Source: Firmicutes bacterium HGW-Firmicutes-1
Lineage (GTDB): Bacteria; Bacillota; Clostridia; Lachnospirales; Vallitaleaceae
DNA: 64,000 nucleotides
Reading direction: 5' to 3'
NCBI GenBank assembly: GCA_002841625.1
Contig: PHAG01000007.1
Location: 62,001 to 126,000 of the forward strand
The translations under genes and the position numbers were made by a program. Positions 10,327 through 59,299 of the stretch are shown here, piece after piece. How positions within the stretch are numbered: the stretch's first letter is position 1; every line of letters starts with the position of its first letter. The notes under the pieces are model-generated. The model had not been told where the DNA came from. It saw nothing but the letters and a program-made list of their open reading frames with translations, and searched no databases.

Positions 10327-10355
10327 TTGATTTCTTTAAATTGTCATGTTATAAT
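10327..10355 (+). promoter_or_regulatory. nif operon promoter
   Basis: TTGATT at 10327-10332 and TATAAT at 10350-10355 are 17 bases apart. A vegetative-type promoter fits with control at the level of the leader rather than a sigma-54/NifA system. The transcript would start near 10362, just before the ANTAR hairpins. Confidence 0.65.
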
Positions 10356-10376
10356 TTCATCAGCATCATAGATTAG

Positions 10377-10473
10377 ATAAAGATAATGTTGTCTTTATAC
10401 CATAATCGATGAGGGCATAGGAGCTCTAACAAATCTACGTACGTCAAGTATGTGAATTTGTTAGAGCTTTTTT
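10377..10473 (+). promoter_or_regulatory. ANTAR-type antitermination leader of the nif operon
   Basis: Two hairpins precede a terminator. P1: stem 10377-10384 with 10391-10398, six-base loop AATGTT. P2: stem 10412-10416 with 10423-10427, six-base loop ATAGGA. Both loops have A at position 1 and G at position 4, the signature of ANTAR-protein targets (EutV, NasR, AmiR). The terminator is a perfect 12-pair stem, 10423-10434 with 10456-10467, followed by six Ts. The 3' arm of P2 is the 5' end of the terminator stem, so the two folds exclude each other. An ANTAR protein bound to P1 and P2 would allow read-through into nifH. No ANTAR gene lies in this window. Confidence 0.85.
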
Positions 10474-10476
10474 ATT

Positions 10477-10558
10477 GATAAGAAAGTCCTGCATAAGCAA
10501 TTGGAAAAGCGGCAGATAGGTAACGCGAGTTTAACTCGGAGTAGCCGATTTTCTTATC
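10477..10558 (+). other. Second structured segment of the nif leader
   Basis: GATAAGAAA at 10477-10485 pairs perfectly with TTTCTTATC at 10550-10558 and encloses about 64 bases with further short stems, including CGAG/CTCG and CTGC/GCAG pairs. It lies between the ANTAR terminator and nifH. I do not recognise it as a known riboswitch class. It may stabilise the nifH mRNA or sense a ligand. Confidence 0.4.
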
Positions 10559-10594
10559 TATCAGGAAGGTTCTAAAACCCAATTCATTGTTTGA

Positions 10595-11428
<834 letters not shown>

Positions 11429-11696
11429 TCATATAAGGTTGGACGCCCCATGAGGAGTCAGCATCCCAAGTTCCATAGGCACATAGTGCCAGTATATTTT
11501 AACATAATGAATGGGATTAAGCAATCTATACGTATATAATGCCTATCCCATATACACTAAAATCAAAGAGAATTAAAATAAATCAAGACAAAATAAATCA
11601 AAATAATATAAGACCTAACCAAAAGAAGACCTAAACAATATAAAGTATAAAGCTAAGCCATAATAAAAAATACAAACTAATATAGGAGTGAATGCC
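11429..11696 (+). other. nifH-nifI1 intergenic region
   Basis: About 270 bases with no gene. GGCAC/GTGCC at 11478-11490 forms a short three-base-loop hairpin soon after nifH and is followed by a T-rich stretch. The second half (about 11560-11690) is A-rich and unstructured. The hairpin could cause partial termination or mark the 3' end of a stable nifH message. Confidence 0.4.
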
Positions 11697-12023
11697 ATGA
11701 AAATGATTAGAGCCATTGTTCGACCAGAAAAAGCAACAGAAATAATGAAGGAATTATCCGATGCAGGGTACCCAGCAGTAACGAAAATTGATGTTGTAGG
11801 TAGAGGTAAGCAACGTGGTGTAAAGGTTGGAGATATCCATTACGATGAAATACCAAAAGAGATTTTAATGATCGTAGTAAAAGATGATGAGGCAAAAGAA
11901 GAAGTAGTAAGCATCATCAAGAAAACAGCTAAGACAGGAAATGGAACATTTGGAGATGGTAAAATATTTGTTACTGATGTTGAAGAGGCTTATACCATTA
12001 GTACAGGTGTAAAGGAACTTTAA
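11697..12023 (+). CDS. nifI1: Nitrogenase PII-type regulator NifI1
   Basis: A 108-residue GlnB-family protein. With NifI2 it binds NifDK and switches off nitrogenase when ammonium appears, as shown in methanogens. It begins MKMIRAIVRPEK and has GRGKQRG before the T-loop and TGNGTFGDGKIFV near the end, both family signatures. I chose ATG 11697 because AGGAG lies at 11684-11688 with proper spacing; the in-frame GTG at 11688 overlaps that Shine-Dalgarno. Its place between nifH and nifD is diagnostic for the nifI1/I2 pair in clostridia and archaea. Confidence 0.93.
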   Translation: MKMIRAIVRPEKATEIMKELSDAGYPAVTKIDVVGRGKQRGVKVGDIHYDEIPKEILMIVVKDDEAKEEVVSIIKKTAKTGNGTFGDGKIFVTDVEEAYTISTGVKEL

Positions 12024-12054
12024 TAAACGCAAATCAAAATAGGGAGTGAACCTT

Positions 12055-12438
12055 ATGAAAGAAATATCAGCAATAATCAGAATGAACAAAGTGAATGATA
12101 CAAAAAAGGCTCTATCAGAAGCAGGGTTTCCTGCAGTAACTTGTAGAAAGGTATCTGGTCGTGGGAAAAAAGCTGTTAATTTTGAAATCATTCAAGAATT
12201 ACTTGAGGGACATGATATTCAAGCACCAGCCTTAATGGAATCTATAACGGAAGGTCATCGTTTGATTACAAAAAGAATGATTATGATGGTTGTTTTAGAT
12301 GGTGAGGTAGATAGTGCGGTAAAGGCTATTATTGATGCAAATCAAACAGGTAATATGGGTGATGGTAAAATATTTATTTGCCCAATTTCAGAAACGATTA
12401 GAATTAGAACCGGTGAAACTGGTGATGAAGCAGTATAA
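12055..12438 (+). CDS. nifI2: Nitrogenase PII-type regulator NifI2
   Basis: A 127-residue GlnB-family protein, partner of NifI1 in post-translational control of nitrogenase. It begins MKEISAIIRMNK and has GRGKKAVN, then a longer T-loop region than NifI1, and TGNMGDGKIFICP near the end, as typical of NifI2. ATG 12055 follows GGGAGTGAA. It is 31 bases after nifI1 and 67 before nifD, in one transcript. Confidence 0.93.
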   Translation: MKEISAIIRMNKVNDTKKALSEAGFPAVTCRKVSGRGKKAVNFEIIQELLEGHDIQAPALMESITEGHRLITKRMIMMVVLDGEVDSAVKAIIDANQTGNMGDGKIFICPISETIRIRTGETGDEAV

Positions 12439-12505
12439 CTCAAACCATTTAGACCATCAGCTTAAGCGAAGGGTGGTCATTATGACTTAGAAAGAGGTGA
12501 TAATT

Positions 12506-14116
12506 ATGCCGCAAAATATAAATAAAGTTGTTGAGAAGGTGTTAGATTCTTATCCTGCAAAAGTTATGAAAAACAGAAAGAGTCACACCGTGATTAGAGA
12601 TACAGGAAAAACCCAAGAAATTGATGCGAATACAAGAACAATACCAGGAATTATTACCAATAGGGGTTGTGCCTACGCTGGATGTAAAGGTGTTGTTATT
12701 GGGCCAATTATTGATATGCTGCATATCGTTCATGGTCCAATTGGTTGCTCTTATTACACTTGGGGAACAAGAAGAAATAAAGGAAGAACCAGAGAAGGCG
12801 GTCAAAACTTCCTAGAATATTCGTTTAGTACAGATCTAGGTGAAAGCGATATTGTTTTTGGTGGAGAAAAGAAACTTATAAAAGCTATAGATGAAGCTGT
12901 TGAATTATTTCATCCGAAAGCGATCTCCATTAGTGCAACATGTCCAGTAGGTTTGATTGGTGACGACATACATCAAATAGCAAAACAAGCTACGCAAAAA
13001 TATGGTATACCTGTTTTAGCTTTTAGCTGTGAAGGTTATAAAGGTGTTAGCCAATCTGCAGGGCATCATATTGCCAACAACAAATTAATGTCAGAAGTGA
13101 TTGGTAAAAATGAAACCTATGAAGCAAAGGCTTATTCAATCAATATGTTAGGTGAATATAACATAGGTGGAGATGAGTGGGAAATATCCAGAGTCATGAA
13201 TAAGATTGGCTATCATGTCGTCACTTCTATGACTGGTAATTCAGTTTATGATGAAATTGCTGCAGCGCATAAGGCAGATTTAAACATTGTTCAATGTCAT
13301 CGTTCTATTAATTATATTGCAGAAATGATTGAAAAAAAATATGGTTTGCCTTGGATTAAAGTGAATTTTATCGGTATTGAATCTATGAGTAAATCCTTAA
13401 GAGATATTGCGAAGTATTTTGGAGATGAAGAGCTTATAAAAAGGACAGAACAAGTTATTGCTGAGGAGATTGCTGAAATTGAACAGGATATTCTACATTA
13501 TAAAAAAATGTGTGAAGGAAAGACAGCAATGTTATTTGTGGGTGGATCTCGTGCACATCATTTCCAAGGTATGTTAAAAGAATTGGGTATGGAAACAATT
13601 TTAGCTGGTTATGAATTTGGTCATAGGGATGACTATGAAGGTAGAGATGTTATACCTAATATAAAAATAGATGCAGATAGTAGAAATATCGAAGAAATAC
13701 AAGTTGAGAAAGATCAAGACAATTATCAACTTCGAATTTCTGAAGAAAAATACAAACAATTACAAGAAGAAATTCCACTTGGTAAATACAAAGGTATGAT
13801 CAATGAAATGGGAGATGGAACCGTTGTTATTGATGATTTGAACCATTTTGAAACAGAGCAATTTGTAAAGGCTTTGAAACCAGATATGTTTGGCTCAGGT
13901 ATCAAGGATAAGTATATGGTTCAGAAAATGGGTGTTTATTCTAAGCAAATCCATTCCTATGATTATGCAGGTCCTTATGCAGGATTTAGAGGTTCGGTAA
14001 ACTTTGCTAAAGATATTGCTGCAGGTATGAATACTTCTGCATGGAAGTATATCATTTCGCCTTGGAAGAAAGAACCAACTATTACAGGTAAGATGGGAGT
14101 TGATCAAGTATGTTAA
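12506..14116 (+). CDS. nifD: Nitrogenase MoFe protein alpha chain NifD
   Basis: The catalytic alpha subunit, 536 residues. P-cluster cysteines are Cys55 (RGCAYAGC), Cys81 (HGPIGCSYY) and Cys146 (SATCPVG). FeMo-cofactor ligands match Azotobacter Cys275 (IVQCHRSINYI) and His442 (QIHSYDYAGPY), and the GVSQSAGHHIAN stretch with the substrate-site Gln and His is intact. Between GHRDDYEG and the His ligand there is an extra segment of about 50 residues (roughly 380-430), as known from C. pasteurianum NifD. ATG 12506 follows AAAGAGGTGA. The 3' end overlaps nifK by seven bases, so translation is coupled. Confidence 0.97.
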   Translation: MPQNINKVVEKVLDSYPAKVMKNRKSHTVIRDTGKTQEIDANTRTIPGIITNRGCAYAGCKGVVIGPIIDMLHIVHGPIGCSYYTWGTRRNKGRTREGGQNFLEYSFSTDLGESDIVFGGEKKLIKAIDEAVELFHPKAISISATCPVGLIGDDIHQIAKQATQKYGIPVLAFSCEGYKGVSQSAGHHIANNKLMSEVIGKNETYEAKAYSINMLGEYNIGGDEWEISRVMNKIGYHVVTSMTGNSVYDEIAAAHKADLNIVQCHRSINYIAEMIEKKYGLPWIKVNFIGIESMSKSLRDIAKYFGDEELIKRTEQVIAEEIAEIEQDILHYKKMCEGKTAMLFVGGSRAHHFQGMLKELGMETILAGYEFGHRDDYEGRDVIPNIKIDADSRNIEEIQVEKDQDNYQLRISEEKYKQLQEEIPLGKYKGMINEMGDGTVVIDDLNHFETEQFVKALKPDMFGSGIKDKYMVQKMGVYSKQIHSYDYAGPYAGFRGSVNFAKDIAAGMNTSAWKYIISPWKKEPTITGKMGVDQVC

Positions 14117-15477
14117 ATGCTACACCAAAAGAGCAAATTGAAAGAACAGGACTTACAATTAATCCGGCTAAAACTTGTCAACCTTTAGGAGCTATGTATG
14201 CAGCCTTAGGGATTAACAAGTGTTTACCACATAGCCATGGGTCACAAGGTTGTTGCTCCTTTCATAGAATGCACCTAACAAGACATTATAGGGATCCAAT
14301 CATCGCATCAACAAGTTCCTTTACAGAAGGCTCTTGTGTATTCGGTGGGAAGTCAAATTTAACACAAGGTCTAACAAATATATTTAATGTTTATAATCCA
14401 GATGTTGTTGCTATCAATACTACCTGCTTGTCGGAGACAATTGGTGATGATGTAGGTGAAATTGTTAGGGATGCCAAAATTCCTGAGGGTAAAACAGTAA
14501 TATATGCGAGTACCCCAAGCTATCAAGGTTCTCATATTACAGGTTTTTCTAATATGTGCAAGTCCATGGTTAGCCAATTGGCAGTTAAGGAAGAAGATAA
14601 ATCAAATGGAAAAATCAACATTTTTCCTGGTTTCGTAGAACCTAGTGATATGAAAGAAATAAAACGTATCGCTAAAGAACTGAAGGTAGAATTTATTATG
14701 TATCCAGATACCAGTGAGGTTGTAAATACGCCAAATACAGGTAGATATGAAATGTATCCGAGTGGTGGTACAACAGTTGCGGATATTAAAGATTCAGGTA
14801 ATTCAATTGCAACTTTAGCATTGGGTTCTTATGCCTCACAAGATGCAGCATTTACGCTTGAAAAGCAATGTGATATCAACCCATATATTTTAAAAACACC
14901 AATTGGTATTAAAGCTACAGATGCTATGATCATGAATCTATTAGAACTAACTGGAGGATCTGTTTCTAAGGAATTAGAAGTTGAAAGAGGACAGCTAGTG
15001 GATTTAATGGTTGATATACATCATCATTATCATGATAAAAAGGTAGCAATCTATGGTGATCCAGATATCATTTTAGCTTTAACTGAGTTTGTGATTGATC
15101 TTGGAATGATTCCTAAATACATCATAACTGGTACGCCAGGAAAAACTTTCGATAAGGAAATAGCTGAAGTATTAGAAACAGCTGAAATAAAGGACTGTAT
15201 CGTAAAGATAGAAGGCGACTTATTTGGACTACATCAAATGATCAAAAACGAACCAGTAGATATGCTTATAGGGAATACCTATGGAAAATATATTGCAAGA
15301 GCAGAAAATATTCCCCTTGTAAGAATTGGGTTTCCAATTCTTGATAGAGTAGGTCATAGCTTCTTTCCAACTGTAGGCTACAGAGGTGCTATGAGATTGA
15401 TTGAAAAAATCAGCACAGCCTTCTTAGATAAGTATGATGTTGAATGTCTTGAAGAGGATTTTGAACTTGTTATGTAA
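14110..15477 (+). CDS. nifK: Nitrogenase MoFe protein beta chain NifK
   Basis: The beta subunit of the MoFe protein, 455 residues. P-cluster ligands are Cys23 (KTCQPLGA), Cys48 (GSQGC) and Cys106 (NTTCLSETIGDD). It lacks the roughly 50-residue N-terminal extension of proteobacterial NifK, like the C. pasteurianum protein; that loss matches the insertion in NifD. The ATG overlaps the last codons of nifD. About 160 bases with weak hairpins separate it from nifE. Confidence 0.97.
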   Translation: MLNATPKEQIERTGLTINPAKTCQPLGAMYAALGINKCLPHSHGSQGCCSFHRMHLTRHYRDPIIASTSSFTEGSCVFGGKSNLTQGLTNIFNVYNPDVVAINTTCLSETIGDDVGEIVRDAKIPEGKTVIYASTPSYQGSHITGFSNMCKSMVSQLAVKEEDKSNGKINIFPGFVEPSDMKEIKRIAKELKVEFIMYPDTSEVVNTPNTGRYEMYPSGGTTVADIKDSGNSIATLALGSYASQDAAFTLEKQCDINPYILKTPIGIKATDAMIMNLLELTGGSVSKELEVERGQLVDLMVDIHHHYHDKKVAIYGDPDIILALTEFVIDLGMIPKYIITGTPGKTFDKEIAEVLETAEIKDCIVKIEGDLFGLHQMIKNEPVDMLIGNTYGKYIARAENIPLVRIGFPILDRVGHSFFPTVGYRGAMRLIEKISTAFLDKYDVECLEEDFELVM

Positions 15478-15639
15478 GGGTAAAAGAGAATAGATAATAA
15501 ATCATTGTTAAATCTATTTCGGGTTGTTGCTGCACAGTAATAAGGGTTTATTAATGTGATGGTTTCATCCCGAGATGATTTTAAACTATAAATAAGCTTG
15601 CTCTAGACGTAAAAAAATAAAAGAATTGTGGTGATTCTG

Positions 15640-16977
15640 GTGGAAAAAAACAATCTATTAGAGGGTAGAAAAAAATTCATTATGCAAAAAGAAAACGAAG
15701 CACCGATGGTTATCAGCTGTGATGAAAATAGCTTATCAGGTGCAGTAAGCCAAAGAGCATGTGTTTACTGTGGTGCCAGAGTTGTCTTAAATCCTATAAC
15801 AGATGCGTTACATCTTGTGCATGGTCCAATTGGTTGCGCAAGTTATACTTGGGACATTAGAGGTAGTCTTAGTAGTGATTCACAGTTGTATCGAAACAGC
15901 TTTTCCACTGATTTAAGAGAAAAAGATATTGTTTTTGGTGGAGAAAAAAAGCTAGCTTCGGCAATTGTTGAAGCTTATGAGGAGTATCATCCCAAGGTAA
16001 TTTTTGTCTATGCTACTTGTGTTGTAGGGGTTATAGGTGATGATATTGATGCTGTTTGTAAAAATGCAGAGAATGAGTTAGGTATTCGTGTACTTCCTGT
16101 TAAATCACCAGGGTTTTCTGGGAACAAAAGGAGTGGGTACAAGGCTGGGTGTAATGCTATTTTGCAGTTAATGGGAGAAACAAAGGTTGCTGAAACAATA
16201 CCTGATTCTATTAATTACTTAGGTGATTTTAATTTAGCCGCAGAAGCTTGGATTATTAAAAGCTATCTAAATGAGATGGGTGTTAAACTCCTTACAGTAC
16301 TTACAGGTGATTCAAATTATGAAAGTCTTTTGCAAGCACCAAGAGCAGAGCTGAATATTGTCCAATGTGCGGGATCAATGACTTATTTGGCCAAGCAAAT
16401 GGAAAGTGCTTATCAAATTCCGTTTGATAAAGTGCGGTTTCTTGGAGTTGATGAGACTGTAAGTGCGTTAAGGAAAATAGCCAATCTGCTAGGCAATACT
16501 GATATTATCATAAGAACAGAAAAACTTATTGAAAGAAAACTAACTGAAGTAAATGACGTATTAGATCAATATCGTAAAAAGGTGAAAGGACATAAAGCGG
16601 CTATCTACGTTGGTGGTGGATTTAAGGCAATAGCACTTATAAAGCAATTCAACAATTTAGGTATAGATACAGTTGTAATTGGTACGCAAACAGGCGATCA
16701 GGAGGAGTATGAAATGATACGAAGCTTGACCAAACAGGGTACAGTCATACTCGATGATACCAATCCAAATGAATTGCAAAAATTTATACTTGAAAAAGGT
16801 GCTGACATTCTTGTAGGTGGTGTAAAGGAAAGACCCCTTGCTTACAAACTAGGAATCGCATTTATTGACCATAATCATGAAAGAAAGCATGCATTAGCGG
16901 GTTTTGAAGGTGCAATTAATTTTGCTCAAGAAGTAGACTTAACGGTCAATAGCCCAGTGTGGGATTACTTAACCTAA
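15640..16977 (+). CDS. nifE: FeMo-cofactor scaffold protein NifE
   Basis: NifE with NifN forms the scaffold on which the NifB product is matured to FeMo-cofactor. The product has SQRACVYCGAR and HGPIGCASYTWD, giving the cysteines expected for NifE, and YATCVVGVIGDD. It lacks the His that holds the cofactor in NifD. The start is uncertain: GTG 15640 (445 residues) has GGTGAT ahead, GTG 15628 is also in frame, and ATG 15682 would shorten it. It resembles clostridial NifE in length. Its 3' end overlaps a short copy of the dispersed repeat (16969-16998). Confidence 0.94.
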   Translation: MEKNNLLEGRKKFIMQKENEAPMVISCDENSLSGAVSQRACVYCGARVVLNPITDALHLVHGPIGCASYTWDIRGSLSSDSQLYRNSFSTDLREKDIVFGGEKKLASAIVEAYEEYHPKVIFVYATCVVGVIGDDIDAVCKNAENELGIRVLPVKSPGFSGNKRSGYKAGCNAILQLMGETKVAETIPDSINYLGDFNLAAEAWIIKSYLNEMGVKLLTVLTGDSNYESLLQAPRAELNIVQCAGSMTYLAKQMESAYQIPFDKVRFLGVDETVSALRKIANLLGNTDIIIRTEKLIERKLTEVNDVLDQYRKKVKGHKAAIYVGGGFKAIALIKQFNNLGIDTVVIGTQTGDQEEYEMIRSLTKQGTVILDDTNPNELQKFILEKGADILVGGVKERPLAYKLGIAFIDHNHERKHALAGFEGAINFAQEVDLTVNSPVWDYLT

Positions 16978-16998
16978 TGCGGAAGCTTTGTAACATTG
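16969..16998 (+). repeat. Dispersed repeat, short copy D
   Basis: TTAACCTAATGC, then GGAAGCTTTGTAACATTG. It matches copy C at 53629 in 26 of 30 positions and the 3' half of copies A and B. It covers the stop codon of nifE and part of the nifE-nifN gap. Confidence 0.6.
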
Positions 16999-17036
16999 GA
17001 AATAAATATATAAAATTTGAAAGGGGAGTAGTCCAT

Positions 17037-18425
17037 ATGGTCCAATCAAAGTCAAGAAGCTTCGTTAATTTAAATGTGAACCCTTGTAAAATGTGCATGC
17101 CAATGGGAGCATCTCTGGCTTTTGAGGGTATTGAAGACAGTATGGTACTCATTCACGGTTCTCAAGGCTGTAGTACCTATATAAGGCGCCATATTGCAAC
17201 TCATTTTAATGAACCTATAGATATAGCCTCTTCTTCCTTAAGTGAGCAAGGTACTGTTTACGGAGGTGCCGCCAACCTAGTTCAAGGTCTTAAAAATGTT
17301 GCAGCAATTTATAACCCGAAGGTCATAGGTGTATTAACTACTTGCTTAGCAGAAACCATAGGTGAAGATATTACACATATCATAAAGGAAAGTGGTATTG
17401 CAAGTGAACTTAAAGGAATTGATATCATACCAGTTCCCACTCCGGGATATGCAGCAAGTGAATATAATGGATATTTTGTTGCTCTCAAAAAAATAGTAGA
17501 GTTTTATGCAAAGGAACCCAAAGTGAAAACCAAACACATTAATGTGATCGTGACTGATTTGACACCAGCAGATATCAGAGAGCTTAAAAGGATTCTAAAC
17601 TTGTTTGAAGTGGAATATACCATTTTTCCGGACATATCAGAAACCTTAGATGCTCCTTATAAAAAGGGTTTTGATAGAAAAACAGAGGGAGGCACAACGA
17701 AATCACAGCTTAAAAGAATGTCAGCTGCCATTGCAACGATTGAGTTCGGTTGGATGACGCCAGTAGGCTTATCGTCAGGGCGATATTTAGAAGAAAACTT
17801 TGGTGTACCTCTTTATTCCTGTCCGTTGCCAATTGGATTGAAAGGAACAGATTTATTTCTTGAAGCTATTTCCAATATTTTCGACAAGCAAGTGCCAGAG
17901 GAGTTGAAAAAAGCTAGGGGTCGTATGCTAGATGCGATGATTGATTCTCATAAATTAAATCGTGAAGGTAGATCCGTGATTTATGGCAATCCAGAACTGA
18001 TCTATGCAGTAAGCAACTTATGTATTGAAAATGGTATTGAGCCTGTTGTTATTGCCACAGGTACTGATACAAATCCATTGGAAGATCAGTTAGAAAAGCT
18101 ACTTGTTAAATATCAGTATAAGCCTATCATTTTAAAGGACTGTGACTTTGAAAGTATACAAAAAAAAGCTATAGAGCAAAAGGCAAATCTATTGATTGGA
18201 AATTCAGATGGTAAATTTATGAAAGAAAAAGAAAATATTCCGTTAGTGCGAATTGGTTTTCCTATACATGACAATATTGGGGCTTCTAGACAACTTTTCA
18301 TAGGATATGAAGGAAGCTTAAGATTTTTAGATCAAATAACCAATACGCTAATCGATAAGAAGCATGAGGCCTATCGTGATAAAATGTATAACAAATATTT
18401 TGTAAATGAAGGATTAATCTTGTGA
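17037..18425 (+). CDS. nifN: FeMo-cofactor scaffold protein NifN
   Basis: The second subunit of the NifEN scaffold, 462 residues, beta-subunit-like. It has NPCKMCMPMGAS, HGSQGCSTY and LTTCLAETIGED. ATG 17037 follows AAGGGGAG; a longer frame from 16959 overlaps nifE and has no ribosome binding site. In C. pasteurianum nifN is fused to nifB; here nifN ends with its own stop and nifB is separate, 16 bases on. Confidence 0.95.
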   Translation: MVQSKSRSFVNLNVNPCKMCMPMGASLAFEGIEDSMVLIHGSQGCSTYIRRHIATHFNEPIDIASSSLSEQGTVYGGAANLVQGLKNVAAIYNPKVIGVLTTCLAETIGEDITHIIKESGIASELKGIDIIPVPTPGYAASEYNGYFVALKKIVEFYAKEPKVKTKHINVIVTDLTPADIRELKRILNLFEVEYTIFPDISETLDAPYKKGFDRKTEGGTTKSQLKRMSAAIATIEFGWMTPVGLSSGRYLEENFGVPLYSCPLPIGLKGTDLFLEAISNIFDKQVPEELKKARGRMLDAMIDSHKLNREGRSVIYGNPELIYAVSNLCIENGIEPVVIATGTDTNPLEDQLEKLLVKYQYKPIILKDCDFESIQKKAIEQKANLLIGNSDGKFMKEKENIPLVRIGFPIHDNIGASRQLFIGYEGSLRFLDQITNTLIDKKHEAYRDKMYNKYFVNEGLIL

Positions 18426-18441
18426 AAAGGGAGGATAACCG

Positions 18442-19320
18442 ATGTTAAAATGCAATAATAATACGCCTTTAAACAAACAATTCATGTCTTCAGAATTAAA
18501 GGAAAAAACAGCAAAGCATCCCTGCTATAATCCGGATGCAATAGATTATGCGAGGATGCATCTCCCAGTTGCACCAAAATGTAATGTGCAGTGCAATTAT
18601 TGCAATAGAAAATACGATTGCCAAAATGAAAGTAGACCAGGAGTTACCAGTATGATTATGTCACCAAAGCAGTCCTTTGAACGATATAAAGAAGAAAAAT
18701 TAAAGTATGATAAATTAACAGTAGTAGGTTTTGCAGGACCAGGAGATGCCATGGCAAATTTTGAGGAAGTCAAAGAGACCATTGAGCTCATTAAAGAATA
18801 TGACGCTACTGCAATTTTTTGTTTATCAACCAATGGATTGGCTTTATATGAACATATTGATGAGGTGATCCAATTAGGGGTTTCGCATATCACGATTACA
18901 ATCAATACTATTTATCCAGAGGTAGCTGCCCAAATATATAAATTCATTGATTTAGATGGAAAGCGTTATACGGGTATTGAAGCAGGAGAAATAATTGTAA
19001 AAAGACAGTTTGAAGCTCTAGAAAAGCTATGCCAAAACAATGTTATGGTGAAAGTAAATATTGTTTATATCAAGGGTTTAAATGATAATCATATTGATAA
19101 GGTTGTTGAAAGAGCAGCAACTTTAGGGGTAGCCATGACAAATATTATGCCACTTATACCAACAGAAAACACAGCCTTCGCAGAATTTCCTAAACCATCA
19201 GCTACAGAGCTTTTATTGGTTAGAAAAAAATGTGAAAAGTATGTAACTCAAATGTATCATTGCAAGCAGTGTCGTGCAGATGCAGTTGGAACACTATGTG
19301 GGAAAAAACAAATAGGGTAG
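18442..19320 (+). CDS. nifB: FeMo-cofactor biosynthesis radical SAM protein NifB
   Basis: NifB builds the carbide-containing 8Fe core of FeMo-cofactor from two [4Fe-4S] clusters and SAM. The 292-residue product has the radical SAM motif CNVQCNYC (Cys47, Cys51, Cys54), HPCYNPDA before it (Cys28 a likely auxiliary-cluster ligand), GFAGPGDAMAN, and a C-terminal CKQCRADAVG. It has no NifX/NafY-type C-terminal domain, so it is the short, stand-alone form found in clostridia and methanogens. ATG 18442 follows GGGAGGATAA. Confidence 0.95.
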   Translation: MLKCNNNTPLNKQFMSSELKEKTAKHPCYNPDAIDYARMHLPVAPKCNVQCNYCNRKYDCQNESRPGVTSMIMSPKQSFERYKEEKLKYDKLTVVGFAGPGDAMANFEEVKETIELIKEYDATAIFCLSTNGLALYEHIDEVIQLGVSHITITINTIYPEVAAQIYKFIDLDGKRYTGIEAGEIIVKRQFEALEKLCQNNVMVKVNIVYIKGLNDNHIDKVVERAATLGVAMTNIMPLIPTENTAFAEFPKPSATELLLVRKKCEKYVTQMYHCKQCRADAVGTLCGKKQIG

Positions 19321-19373
19321 TAATACCATGAAATATGAACTTAATAAAAAAAATTGTTTGGAGGTAATGAAAG

Positions 19374-19679
19374 ATGGAAAAACCTAAACATCATATTTTC
19401 GTATGCACAAGTTCTAGATTAACAGGAGAAAATAAGGGTTTTTGTGTTCAACAAAAAGGAAAGGAAATTATCCAAGCCTTTGTAGAAGAGATACAGGATC
19501 GAGATTTGGACTCAGAAGTATTGGTGACGAACACTGGTTGTCTTGGACTTTGTACTATGGGCCCTGTTGTAATCATTTATCCAGACCAAATATGGTATGG
19601 AAAAGTAACAGTTCAAGATGTCGAAGAAATACTAGATGCACTAGAAGAAGGAAATCTTGTAGAACGATTATTACTATAA
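19374..19679 (+). CDS. [2Fe-2S] ferredoxin of the C. pasteurianum type
   Basis: A 101-residue thioredoxin-like ferredoxin, close in pattern to the C. pasteurianum [2Fe-2S] protein that interacts with nitrogenase. Cluster ligands Cys11, Cys24, Cys56 and Cys60 are all present. The non-ligand Cys14 of the C. pasteurianum protein is Ser here. PKHHIFVC and TGCLGLC are typical. ATG 19374 follows TTGGAGGTAATG. Its place between nifB and modA suggests a dedicated electron carrier for NifB, NifEN or nitrogenase. Confidence 0.9.
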   Translation: MEKPKHHIFVCTSSRLTGENKGFCVQQKGKEIIQAFVEEIQDRDLDSEVLVTNTGCLGLCTMGPVVIIYPDQIWYGKVTVQDVEEILDALEEGNLVERLLL

Positions 19680-19708
19680 GGGTTATTAATTTATAAGGTG
19701 GATAAAGT

Positions 19709-20518
19709 ATGGTATTAAAAAAAGCAAAAATAATTTTTATAGCATTAGGGTTATTACTTACTTGTATCAGCTTAATAGGTTGTTCGCAAGAGGAGAAAAA
19801 AACAAAATTAACGATCTTAGCGGCTGCGAGTCTTACAGAGGTTTATACTGAGCTAGAAAAAGGGTTTGAGGCACAATATACAGATATAGATCTTCAATTT
19901 ACCTTTGCAGGAACCACAACATTATTACCTCAAATCAAAGAAGGTATAGAGGCTGATATTTTTGTATCTGCCAGTGAATCGGCTATACTTGAACTCTTAG
20001 ATGAGGGATACATAAAAGAAGAAGCTGTTAAGGTATTTGCACATAATCAATTGGCATTCATGATTTACAAAGATTCAAACTTTGATGTTAAATCTATGGA
20101 AGATGTACTCCAAGAGGGCATCAAAGTTATTATTGGAGAACCCAATCTACCTGTTGGGAAATACACAGTTGAGATGTTAGACAAAATTGAGGCCGAAGGA
20201 CTCTATGGAGAAAATTACAAAGAGCTTTTCATGGATCATGTAGTATCAATGGAAAATTCGGTGAAGGCTGTAGCTATAAAGGTTGAAATGGGTGAAGCAG
20301 ATGTTGGGGTTGTGTATGCTACAGATTTTACGTCTTTAAATAACAAATGGGTCTATGGTATAGATATTCCAAAAGCTTATAATCCTAAAGCAACCTATGA
20401 ATTGGCAACGTTAAAAAATAGCAAGAATAAAAGAATGGCCGATAAGTTTGTTGCGTATGTTCTTGGTAAAGAAGGGCAAGATTATTTGCTTAAATATGGT
20501 TTTATCTTACCCGAGTAG
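19709..20518 (+). CDS. modA: Molybdate ABC transporter substrate-binding lipoprotein ModA
   Basis: ModA binds molybdate outside the membrane. The 269-residue product has a lipoprotein signal peptide with the lipobox LIGC, then AAASLTEVY, TFAGTTTLLPQI and GEADVGVVYATD, the usual oxyanion-binding segments. ATG 19709 follows AAGGTGGATAA. It is followed by modB 22 bases on. It supplies Mo for the FeMo-cofactor made by the genes upstream. Confidence 0.92.
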   Translation: MVLKKAKIIFIALGLLLTCISLIGCSQEEKKTKLTILAAASLTEVYTELEKGFEAQYTDIDLQFTFAGTTTLLPQIKEGIEADIFVSASESAILELLDEGYIKEEAVKVFAHNQLAFMIYKDSNFDVKSMEDVLQEGIKVIIGEPNLPVGKYTVEMLDKIEAEGLYGENYKELFMDHVVSMENSVKAVAIKVEMGEADVGVVYATDFTSLNNKWVYGIDIPKAYNPKATYELATLKNSKNKRMADKFVAYVLGKEGQDYLLKYGFILPE

Positions 20519-20540
20519 GGCAGTTGGGAGTTGATATGTT

Positions 20541-21386
20541 GTGGAAAGAAGTGGAGTTACGCTGGAGGAATCAAAATTTTTCCTTCAACCAAAAAAGGAG
20601 TTATCTTTTAAAAAATTAAACATTACTTACCTCATGTTATGGTCGGTAGTATTGGTTAATTTTATAGGTATTATAAGCGTTTTATATGCGATGATTGCAA
20701 ATGTTTCCACTGAGAATCTGAATAAGCTTGTAGCAACAGGAGATACATTTTCTGCTCTTAAAACAACTTTTTTCTCCATCCTAATTTCTGTAAGTATCGT
20801 ATGTATCATCGGTATTCCTGTAGCATATATGCTAGCTATCCATAAAGGTGTTTTTTATAATTTGATTGAGATCATTACCTTTATACCGCTAGTTTTACCT
20901 CCATCTGTCGCTGGTCTTGCCTTGTTAATGACATTTGGAAAGCATGGAATAATAGGCGAAAAGTTAGACCAATGGGGCATTCAATTACCCTTTACTTTTT
21001 TTGCAATTGTACTAGTTCAAGTTTTTATATGTATGCCATTTTTTATTCAAATTGTTAAAAATGGATTTGATACTGTAGAAACGGAAGTAATAGAAGCCGC
21101 AAAAGTATTTGGGGCAGGAGACGGGATTCTTTTGTGTAAGTTTTATATACCAATAAATATAAAGGCTATATTTGCAGGGATCATTCTTTGTTGCCTGAGA
21201 GCGGCAGGGGAATTTGGTGCAACAATTATGTTAGCAGGTAATATGGTTGGAAAAACGCAGACGATAACAACAAGAATTTTTTCGTTATATCAATATGATG
21301 TTATGCAAGCGGTCGCTTTGGCTGCTGTTCAGCTATTCTTATTACTAATTCCATTGCTTCTATTAAAATTGTTTTTTAAGCATTAA
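20541..21386 (+). CDS. modB: Molybdate ABC transporter permease ModB
   Basis: The membrane channel of the molybdate importer, 281 residues. It has about six membrane helices, PLVLPPSVAGLALL, and the ABC coupling motif region EAAKVFGAGDGILLCKFYIP with RAAGEFGATIM. The start is GTG 20541 with GGGAGTTGAT upstream. No modC ATPase gene follows; nifV begins 19 bases later. The ATPase must come from elsewhere or be shared. Confidence 0.92.
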   Translation: MERSGVTLEESKFFLQPKKELSFKKLNITYLMLWSVVLVNFIGIISVLYAMIANVSTENLNKLVATGDTFSALKTTFFSILISVSIVCIIGIPVAYMLAIHKGVFYNLIEIITFIPLVLPPSVAGLALLMTFGKHGIIGEKLDQWGIQLPFTFFAIVLVQVFICMPFFIQIVKNGFDTVETEVIEAAKVFGAGDGILLCKFYIPINIKAIFAGIILCCLRAAGEFGATIMLAGNMVGKTQTITTRIFSLYQYDVMQAVALAAVQLFLLLIPLLLLKLFFKH

Positions 21387-21405
21387 AAAGAAGGAGAGTG
21401 GCTTT

Positions 21406-22458
21406 ATGTCCAGGCTTTATATTGTTGATACAACCTTAAGAGATGGGGAACAGACAGCGGGCGTTTCTTTTGCGAAAGATGAGAAACTTAAGATTGCAGT
21501 AGCACTTGCTGATTTGGGTGTAGATATTATCGAGGTAGGAATACCTGCTATGAGTGCGAGAGAAAGGGAAGTTATTCGAGAAATCAATGAACTTCACTTA
21601 TCCTCTGAGTTATTGGTATGGAATAGGATGTCAATTTCTGATGTTAAACTGTCTATAGAGACAGGGGTACAGCAACTTCATATCACTGTTCCAGCATCAG
21701 ATCTTCATATGCAGAAAAAGCTAGGAATTACCCGAAAAGAGCTCATAAAAAGAATGAATGAAACGATTTCCTTTGCTATAGAAAAAGGATGTAAAGTTTC
21801 AGTAGGAGCAGAGGATGCTTCGAGAACAGAGTTGAATTTTTTGATTCAACTTTATAAAGAGGCTGTTAGCCAGGGTGCTCATAGAGTACGATATGCAGAT
21901 ACGGTTGGTCGACTAGACCCTTTTTCTACCTATCATATTATTCGCTCTATTAAAGAAGAGATTGGTGTAGATATTGATTTTCATGGGCACAATGATCTAG
22001 GAATGGGAACTGCGAACGCGTTAGCGGCCTACAAAGGGGGAGCTGGATATATTAGTTGCAGTGTCAACGGACTAGGGGAAAGGGCAGGAAATACGCCATT
22101 AGAAGAAATTGTTACAGCAATTCGCTATGTTGAAGGTTGTGAAGAGAAAATGAAGATGAAGAAAATTATGACGGTATCTAAAATGGTTGAAAAGTATTCG
22201 GGGCGAAAGGTTCAAGATTCCAAACCTATTGTTGGCAAGGAGGTTTTCTCCCATGAAGCAGGTATTCATGTGGATGGCTTATTAAAAGACATATTAACCT
22301 ATGAAGAAATCTCTCCTGAGATATTTGGAAGACATAGAAAAATTGTTTTAGGTAAGCATTCGGGAAAACACGCGATTAAGCATGACTATCAGAAAAGAGG
22401 TATTGTCATTTCTGATGCAGAGGTTGAACAAATATTAAAGGAACTACGACAAGGTTAG
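21406..22458 (+). CDS. nifV: Homocitrate synthase NifV
   Basis: NifV condenses acetyl-CoA and 2-oxoglutarate to homocitrate, the organic ligand of FeMo-cofactor. The 350-residue product has the TIM-barrel start VDTTLRDGEQTAGV, the metal-binding HGHNDLGMGTANAL and the NGLGERAGNTPLEEI motif, and a C-terminal subdomain with SHEAGIHVDG. In C. pasteurianum the enzyme is split in two genes (nifV-omega and nifV-alpha); here it is one chain. ATG 21406 follows AAGGAGAGTGG. It closes the nif operon, ahead of a 23-pair inverted repeat. Confidence 0.92.
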   Translation: MSRLYIVDTTLRDGEQTAGVSFAKDEKLKIAVALADLGVDIIEVGIPAMSAREREVIREINELHLSSELLVWNRMSISDVKLSIETGVQQLHITVPASDLHMQKKLGITRKELIKRMNETISFAIEKGCKVSVGAEDASRTELNFLIQLYKEAVSQGAHRVRYADTVGRLDPFSTYHIIRSIKEEIGVDIDFHGHNDLGMGTANALAAYKGGAGYISCSVNGLGERAGNTPLEEIVTAIRYVEGCEEKMKMKKIMTVSKMVEKYSGRKVQDSKPIVGKEVFSHEAGIHVDGLLKDILTYEEISPEIFGRHRKIVLGKHSGKHAIKHDYQKRGIVISDAEVEQILKELRQG

Positions 22459-22506: not shown

Positions 22507-22561
22507 CATTCATAATATAATGCCCGACAGTTGCTGAATGTCGGGCATTATATTATGAATG
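22507..22561. terminator. 23-bp perfect inverted repeat at the end of the nif operon
   Basis: Bases 22507-22529 and 22539-22561 are perfect reverse complements with a nine-base loop. The core is TGCCCGACA/TGTCGGGCA with AT-rich outer arms. There is no good T-run, but it lies between the convergent nifV and epimerase genes and probably works as a bidirectional terminator. Confidence 0.7.
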
Positions 22562-57421: not shown

Positions 57422-59299
57422 GTGTTCGCCCAGCATGGGCGAACTCTTGCGGGTGAAAGTCCCGAGTGTGCCTTTGTAGTAGGAAGCACATAGCCAAGAA
57501 CAAGGGTGTCCACCGTGAGGTGGAATCTGAAGGAAGTTGGAGGCAAACCTCTGGTCTGACGGACAGAAATCACATATAAGGCAGTTCATAATGGATAAGG
57601 TTGCACAACAAACTGAAGTCCGATACTACTGGAATAATTATGAAGTGTAAATGTGGCAGATAGATGGAGGGAAAGAGTTCGTTCTTAACTGGGGAGATCT
57701 TATCTCCTACACCAAAGGCTTGCAGTGATGTAAGAATGGGAAATGAGAAGTCAGCAGAAGCCATAGTAGTGATGAAGCCTATGGAAACTTAGGAATAGCG
57801 AAGGGCTGAACAATCTTATCAGTTACTAAAATCGTGATTGCGTATCAATGCAACATCAGGTGCTTTAACACTCTATCGAAAGATAAGGCGATGGCAGAGA
57901 TACCACGAGAAGAATGGAGGTAGCGAATGTGAAAACTGAAAATCTTTTGGAGCAGATACTGAGTTCGGAAAATCTGAATGAAGCATATCTGCAAGTCAAA
58001 CGAAATAAGGGAGCAGAGGGAGTTGACGGAATGAAAGTCGATGAACTTAAGGAGCATCTTAGAACGAATGGCGAGAACATTAAGGAACAAATAAGGGAAA
58101 GAAGGTACCACCCTGAACCTGTAAGGCGAGTTGAAATACCAAAGCCTGATGGTGGGGTAAGAAACTTAGGAGTTCCAACAGTAACAGACCGATTCATCCA
58201 ACAAGCAATAGCACAGGTGCTGACACCAATCTATGAGGAACAATTCCACGACAACAGCTATGGATTTAGACCTAAAAGATGTGCAGAAATGGCAATCATC
58301 AAAAGCCTTGAAGTGATGAATGATGGCAATACGTGGGTAGTTGATATTGACCTGGAGAAATTCTTTGACAATGTAAACCACGATAAGCTGATGAATCTCA
58401 TAGCAAGGACGATTAAAGATGGAGATGCCATTTCAATCATCAGAAGATTTTTGGTAAGTGGAGTAATGATTGATGATGAATACAAAGAGACCATTATTGG
58501 TACACCACAAGGTGGGAATTTATCACCACTCTTAAGCAATATAATGCTTAATGAACTTGACAAGGAACTTGAAGGAAGAGGACTTAGCTTTGTGAGGTAT
58601 GCAGATGACTGTATTATTCTTTTGAAAAGCGAGAAAGCAGCCAACAGAGTCATGTCAAGCATAACGAAATTTATTGAAGAGAAGTTGGGATTGAAGGTCA
58701 ATGTAAGTAAAAGTAAAGTGGATAGACCCAATGGCATAAAGTACCTAGGATTTGGATTCTACTGGGACACATTTAGTCATCAGTTTAAAGCAAAACCACA
58801 CCAAAAGTCTGTAGAGAAGTTAAAAGAGAAACTTAAACGGCTCACATCGAGAAGTTGGGGTGTTAGTACGGCATACAGAATGGTGAAGTTGAAGCAATTG
58901 ATAATTGGATGGGTGAACTATTTTAAAATCGGTAGCATGAAGAAAATGTGTACTGAACTAGATGCACACATAAGATTTCGATTAAGAATGTGTATATGGA
59001 AGCAATGGAAAAAGGTTAAAACGAAGTACAAGAATCTTATGTTACTTGGCATCCCGAAGCAGAAGGCTTGGGAGTGGGCAAATTCTAGAAAAGGCTATGC
59101 GAGAATAGGTAGTTCATGGATTCTGCATAGAGCGATTACCAACGAAAGATTAAAGAAATTTGGCCTAGTATTGCTACTAGACCAGTATCAGTTAGTTCAC
59201 ATTTAGTTATAAGATTGAACCGCCGTATACGGAACCGTACGTACGGTGGTGTGAGAGGACGGAAATTTCTCATTCAGAGAAATTTCCTCCTACTCGATT
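57422..59299 (+). mobile_element. Group IIC intron
   Basis: The element starts with GTGTTCGCCCAGC directly after the T-run of an intrinsic terminator, the known target of class C introns. It carries its own reverse transcriptase gene. Domain V lies at about 59217-59250, with the CGC triad (GAACCGCCG) typical of class C and ACGTACGGT opposite it. Domain VI follows with a GGAAATTTCTC/GAGAAATTTCC stem, and the 3' end is CTACTCGAT near 59299. The exact 3' boundary may be off by a base or two. It looks intact and so may still move. Confidence 0.88.
57929..59206 (+). CDS. ltrA: Group II intron reverse transcriptase/maturase (class C)
   Basis: The intron-encoded protein helps the RNA fold, splice and reverse-splice. 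The product of about 425 residues has the RT domain with IPKPDGGVRNLGVPTVTDR, GFRPKR, TPQGGNLSPLLSNI and the catalytic FVRYADD, and a maturase X domain near 320-400. It has no HNH endonuclease domain, as usual for class C. The start is either GTG 57929 (GGAGG eight bases ahead) or ATG 57914. No frameshift is visible. Confidence 0.92.
   Translation: MKTENLLEQILSSENLNEAYLQVKRNKGAEGVDGMKVDELKEHLRTNGENIKEQIRERRYHPEPVRRVEIPKPDGGVRNLGVPTVTDRFIQQAIAQVLTPIYEEQFHDNSYGFRPKRCAEMAIIKSLEVMNDGNTWVVDIDLEKFFDNVNHDKLMNLIARTIKDGDAISIIRRFLVSGVMIDDEYKETIIGTPQGGNLSPLLSNIMLNELDKELEGRGLSFVRYADDCIILLKSEKAANRVMSSITKFIEEKLGLKVNVSKSKVDRPNGIKYLGFGFYWDTFSHQFKAKPHQKSVEKLKEKLKRLTSRSWGVSTAYRMVKLKQLIIGWVNYFKIGSMKKMCTELDAHIRFRLRMCIWKQWKKVKTKYKNLMLLGIPKQKAWEWANSRKGYARIGSSWILHRAITNERLKKFGLVLLLDQYQLVHI

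Follow-up and report, generated by a model that had tools for sequence, protein, structure and literature searches.

A probable ANTAR-type attenuator in the nif leader of Firmicutes bacterium HGW-Firmicutes-1, with NitR as its predicted regulator

What switches the nitrogenase genes on is the question raised by the leader that precedes nifH in the window, i.e. the whole 64,000-nt stretch of DNA analysed here. The control of nitrogen fixation in Clostridia is poorly known in comparison with the NifA/sigma-54 and GlnR systems. The initial annotation, made from the sequence alone, had proposed that an ANTAR regulator encoded elsewhere in the genome controls twelve downstream genes by RNA antitermination. 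The reading reached here, to which a probability of about 0.88 is assigned, is that the leader is an ANTAR-type attenuator opened at nitrogen scarcity by NitR, a protein encoded next to glnA, and that this type of switch is shared with the glutamine synthetase gene glnN and both ammonium-transporter (amtB) loci. Unless stated otherwise, positions are those of the window and features lie on the forward strand.

Anatomy and folding of the nif leader

A sigma-A type promoter was observed at nt 10327–10355, with TTGATT (10327–10332), a 17-nt spacer, and TATAAT (10350–10355) preceded by TG; it matched 10 of 12 positions, a match as common in shuffled sequences and hence not above background. Downstream lie hairpin P1 (nt 10377–10398; ATAAAGAU-AAUGUU-GUCUUUAU) with an 8-bp stem closed by a U-G pair, a 13-nt linker (nt 10399–10411), and the antiterminator hairpin P2 (nt 10412–10427; AGGGC-AUAGGA-GCUCU) with a 5-bp stem closed by C-G, both loops having A at position 1 (A1) and G at position 4 (G4). 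They are followed by an intrinsic terminator (nt 10420–10473), the 5′ arm of which starts inside the P2 loop and takes in the whole P2 3′ arm; its 13-bp core pairs nt 10422–10434 with nt 10456–10468, encloses an inner 7-bp stem, and runs into a U-tract of six T residues (nt 10468–10473). The promoter, the two hexaloop hairpins and the overlapping terminator of the initial annotation were thus all present. An ANTAR target is defined by a pair of hairpins, each with a six-base loop on a stem of 3 bp or more, by A1 and G4 in both loops, and by an intrinsic terminator that overlaps P2 and excludes it; all these features were found here, the mutual exclusion being indicated by folding.

The leader folded at -39.8 kcal/mol (z = -6.9 against shuffles). 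When folding of the growing transcript was simulated, P1 and P2 were both formed by nt 10430, and the terminator supplanted P2 in the minimum-energy fold from nt 10466 onwards. In the energy model, A1 of the P1 loop pairs with U6, leaving an AUGU tetraloop, so that the P1 hexaloop is uncertain in free RNA, where this loop may be a tetraloop. A strict motif was composed of a hairpin pair (stems of 4 bp or more) with RNNGNN hexaloops, closing pairs of C or U with G, a linker of at most 25 nt, and a terminator whose 5′ arm covers the 3′ arm of P2. This motif, which was written after the window and its relatives had been seen and follows the published one except that G is allowed at position 1, matched once in the window (both strands) and had no match among the 95.4 million strand-bases of 745 shuffles made with a second-order Markov model. 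None of 1820 shuffled leaders carried tandem hairpins together with an overlapping terminator.

With this arrangement, RNA polymerase, expected to start near nt 10362, would make P1 and then P2. If no active ANTAR protein is present, P2 would give way to the terminator's 3′ arm and transcription would stop at about nt 10473; when nitrogen is scarce, NitR would hold P2 through its hexaloop, the terminator would be blocked, and the twelve-gene nif operon would be read.

The operon (nt 10610–22458) comprises nifH, starting at nt 10610, two PII-like genes, nifD, nifK, nifE, nifN, nifB, a 2Fe-2S ferredoxin-like gene, modA, modB, and nifV. The products of nifH, nifD, nifK, and nifE scored over the NCBIfam cut-offs and those of nifB and nifV slightly under, while nifN was assigned from position and similarity, and the PII, ferredoxin, and mod gene names rest on sequence and position only. 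No strong intrinsic terminator was observed among the twelve genes (nt 10610–22458), the first after the leader being that located 3′ of nifV at nt 22521–22547, the likely end of the operon; a single switch could therefore govern all twelve genes, as had been supposed. A gap of about 260 nt between nifH and the first PII-like gene (nt 11429–11687) is AT-rich, has no terminator, and is perhaps an mRNA processing region.

Between the leader terminator and nifH, the structured stretch at nt 10474–10573 was considered as a second regulatory RNA and rejected, as it is a copy of a genus-specific interspersed repeat of about 80 bp with the core CTGCATAAGCAATTGGAAAAGCGGCAGATAGGTAACG...AGCCGATTTTCTT. 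About 50 copies, some in tandem at 82–95 bp, occur in the genome; the sister species has 12 matches, none of them in its nif leader, and the other family genomes have none. Elsewhere in the window, Group II intron domains were detected with Rfam at nt 57509–59298.

Related leaders at nif and other nitrogen genes

The expectation that the architecture would be retained in related nif leaders was borne out. In a sister species of the same genus (G002), the promoter, P1 (loop AAUGCU), the 13-nt linker, P2 (loop GUAGGA), and the terminator are kept while the remaining leader has diverged. A member of a second genus (G001) has the same architecture built from other stem sequences, with P1 uaucg-AAAGAC-cgaua, a linker of 4 nt, P2 aggc-GAAGGA-gccu, and a long terminator. 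Tandem hairpins with an overlapping terminator were thus present in the nif leaders of G000, G002, and G001, and the P2-terminator part was present in those of G009 and G015. The combination of A1 and G4 in both loops, noted in the initial annotation, holds for the window, but A1 is not invariant, position 1 of the P2 loop being G in both G002 and G001. In three genomes of one family genus (G005, G007, and G008), NitR and nif genes were present and a nif leader of ANTAR-target type was absent, which weighs against the present reading. In the corresponding place, the nif leaders of that genus (L086 and L088, at about nt 1310–1390) contain a strong hairpin with loop AAUAGA, in which position 4 is A; a U-tract is missing, giving the appearance of a decayed or repurposed attenuator.

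Outside the family, P2-type hairpins were observed at terminators in the nif leaders of diverse Clostridia, in some cases two or three in series. Such serial attenuators, without a clear P1, lie upstream of nifH in L014, L020, L003, and L004, and are possibly single-hexaloop ANTAR sites in series. In a set of 91 nif leaders, 32 hairpins overlapped a terminator, and 23 of these had loops with a purine in first and G in fourth position (R1/G4); among such hairpins of shuffled leaders the figure was 3 of 42 (Fisher p = 7.5e-9, a rough value because related leaders were counted separately). Of the 23, 20 close with C-G. A P1 with R1/G4 was clear in only five of the 91; tandem nif leaders are in the minority, and in many others the P2-type hairpin stands alone. 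Outside the family, a P2-type R1/G4 hairpin was present in 13 nif leaders; ANTAR proteins were encoded in the genomes of 11 of them, and the two cases lacking one (L073 and L074) also look the weakest, with closing pairs T-G and G-C. This co-occurrence is weak evidence, since many clostridial nif genomes in which no leader of ANTAR type is recognisable encode an ANTAR protein as well.

An ANTAR switch upstream of nif, as originally proposed, agrees with the tandem leader, but the switch is not specific to nif. The glnN leader of the same genome contains a P2 (gaac-AAUGGG-guuc) with a terminator, and the full motif was found at glnK-amtB on contig 17 (aauac-GAUGAC-guauu followed by auaggc-AAGGUA-gucuau) and at amtB-glnK on contig 4 (gaauuc-AAUGAC-gaauuc followed by agac-AAAGAG-gucu). 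In the family, the element precedes glnN at nearly all NitR loci; its P2, commonly GAAC-AAUGGC-GUUCU, is near-invariant, and its P1 is variable and recognisable in only part of the genomes. No ANTAR-like element was found upstream of glnA or gltB in the genome. As the scan for further targets covered chosen stretches of the genome, additional targets may exist.

When nine elements from nif and glnN leaders were aligned, both partners had changed in 7 of the 10 stem pairs, a count reached in 0 of 500 shuffles but biased, as the rows had been chosen for having hairpins and the G001 and amtB leaders were left out after MAFFT lost their register. A covariance model built mainly from glnN leaders had the glnN leader of the genome as its top match (27.3 bits); it placed the nif leader of the window in the right register at 9.3 bits (E 3.6), under spurious matches, and its remaining matches in the genome had no second hairpin with terminator. 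Since the same element precedes glnN, glnK-amtB, and amtB-glnK, nif is apparently one member of a nitrogen regulon, in which NitR would also release the terminators before these three targets as part of a single nitrogen-scavenging response. All targets have nitrogen-scavenging functions, so that activation under nitrogen scarcity is the natural reading.

NitR and the alternative explanations

The expectation that the genome would encode an ANTAR protein was confirmed: exactly one was found in the 99% complete genome, matching PF03861 at 54.5 bits, over the cut-off. This receiver-ANTAR protein of about 190 residues, designated here NitR, is encoded at C3:175717–176289 of the genome (nt 9715–10293 of L093, minus strand), between the glutamine synthetase genes glnA and glnN, the glnN leader lying directly 3′ of its gene. 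Orthologues were present in 18 of 22 family genomes (L094–L111). In all 18, the receiver has SS or SN where the acidic pair would be but retains the phospho-acceptor Asp and the Lys; NitR therefore lacks one element of the EutV-type receiver, which combines the acidic pair with these two residues, whereas some relatives have a second, EutV-like ANTAR protein in which the pair is intact. Because the acidic pair is lost throughout, control of NitR by phosphorylation is doubtful, and its signal is probably something other than plain receiver phosphorylation. In the ANTAR part, the position of Tyr164, which stacks on G4 in EutV, is taken by His in NitR, a point against the present reading; the equivalents of EutV Lys147, Lys149, Glu160, and Met172 are kept (numbering from an alignment with an offset of 2; residue roles from PMC8934654). 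In most other clostridial nif genomes with a P2-type hairpin, glnA again has an ANTAR gene as its neighbour, sometimes followed by gltB or amtB, as judged from neighbour gene names read by eye from the sequences.

Promoter and terminator alone would yield an RNA of about 110 nt, so the leader could be a constitutive attenuator or a free-standing short RNA, with nif controlled at initiation or post-transcriptionally and the hairpins incidental. This is improbable, as loop and stem features are kept between divergent leaders while the flanks vary, nif terminators specifically show an excess of R1/G4 loops, and the same element occurs at other nitrogen genes. Control by another kind of antiterminator, a BglG/LicT-type protein acting through a RAT hairpin, is suggested by bglG-cis-reg, which scored highest of the Rfam models in the leader (nt 10370–10489; 26.1 bits, E 0.014 in a small search). 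That score is far from the 80-bit gathering score of RF03530, and the match derives mostly from the terminator stem and P1, with many consensus pairs broken; moreover, the genes are not for sugar utilisation, and this explanation has hardly any likelihood. When the whole window was searched at the gathering threshold, Rfam gave nothing in the nif leader, and a lenient search gave only sub-threshold matches.

An ANTAR-type switch could also have a reader other than NitR, either a second factor or an ANTAR-like protein that escaped the Pfam model. In favour of this, the P1-P2 details differ between the nif and glnN leaders, and NitR has unusual residues. Against this stand the single ANTAR protein of a nearly complete genome and the situation in G001, where nif has the same tandem leader and the sole ANTAR protein is the NitR orthologue, making a second reader very unlikely. 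Recognition of the nif leader by NitR is the predicted interaction.

Relation to known ANTAR systems

Dual-hexaloop antitermination targets of ANTAR proteins were defined by Ramesh et al. 2012 (PMC3369931), and known pairs include the E. faecalis eut leaders with EutV, nasF with NasR, and amiE with AmiR. The window leader resembles these in its two hexaloop hairpins with A1 and G4, a linker, which is of variable length in such targets, and a P2 overlapping an intrinsic terminator; it differs in its nif target, its 13-nt linker, and the U-G closure of P1, and its sister leaders differ in the G at P2 position 1. Linkers of 5–12 nt are natural in the E. faecalis eut leaders and 14 nt is harmful (PMC3369931), so that the 13 nt observed here fall between the two, the range being that of EutV. 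From the structure of EutV with RNA (2022), a single hexaloop has been proposed as the minimal ANTAR site, with G4 and not A1 contacting the protein (PMC8934654). The occurrence of A or G at position 1 fits this contact, and the many clostridial nif leaders having only a P2-type hexaloop fit the minimal site, whereas the window leader represents the full tandem form.

The same 2012 study, in its text and Fig. 9, describes a predicted ANTAR nitrogenase regulon in Pelobacter carbinolicus, matches at nitrogenase subunits, and a general link of ANTAR targets to nitrogen genes (PMC3369931). As here, the targets lie upstream of nitrogenase transcription units; that organism is distant, and no glnA-linked regulator is named in those parts of the paper. 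A nitR/ANTAR gene in a Clostridium glutamine synthetase cluster (C. thermocellum Clo1313_2030) is reported in PMC4676874, which cites C. acetobutylicum work. It likewise encodes a receiver-ANTAR protein among ammonia-assimilation genes, proposed as an antiterminator, and the available text draws no tie to nif or to leader RNAs. Literature linking a glnA-linked ANTAR protein to clostridial nif leaders was not found within an incomplete coverage, and the supplementary tables of PMC3369931 may list such leaders. The RNA motif and its mechanism are thus already known, predicted nitrogenase targets included, and the window leader is a well-supported further case.

With its acidic pair lost and Asp and Lys kept, NitR may have a pseudo-receiver of AmiR type, which is unphosphorylated and controlled by a partner, and the loss sharpens the question of the nature of the nitrogen signal. 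Tentatively, and with somewhat less than even odds, a glnA-linked ANTAR protein whose receiver is degenerate might switch nitrogenase in many Clostridia, sensing nitrogen status by touching a partner directly (glutamine synthetase or a PII protein, for example) and not by way of a kinase; it would act on leaders that range from tandem to single-hexaloop. In the present genome, one candidate regulator and four target leaders can be named, and the same logic recurs in other clostridial diazotrophs. If true, glnA-linked ANTAR switching would play in Clostridia the part that the NtrC/NifA and GlnR systems play elsewhere.
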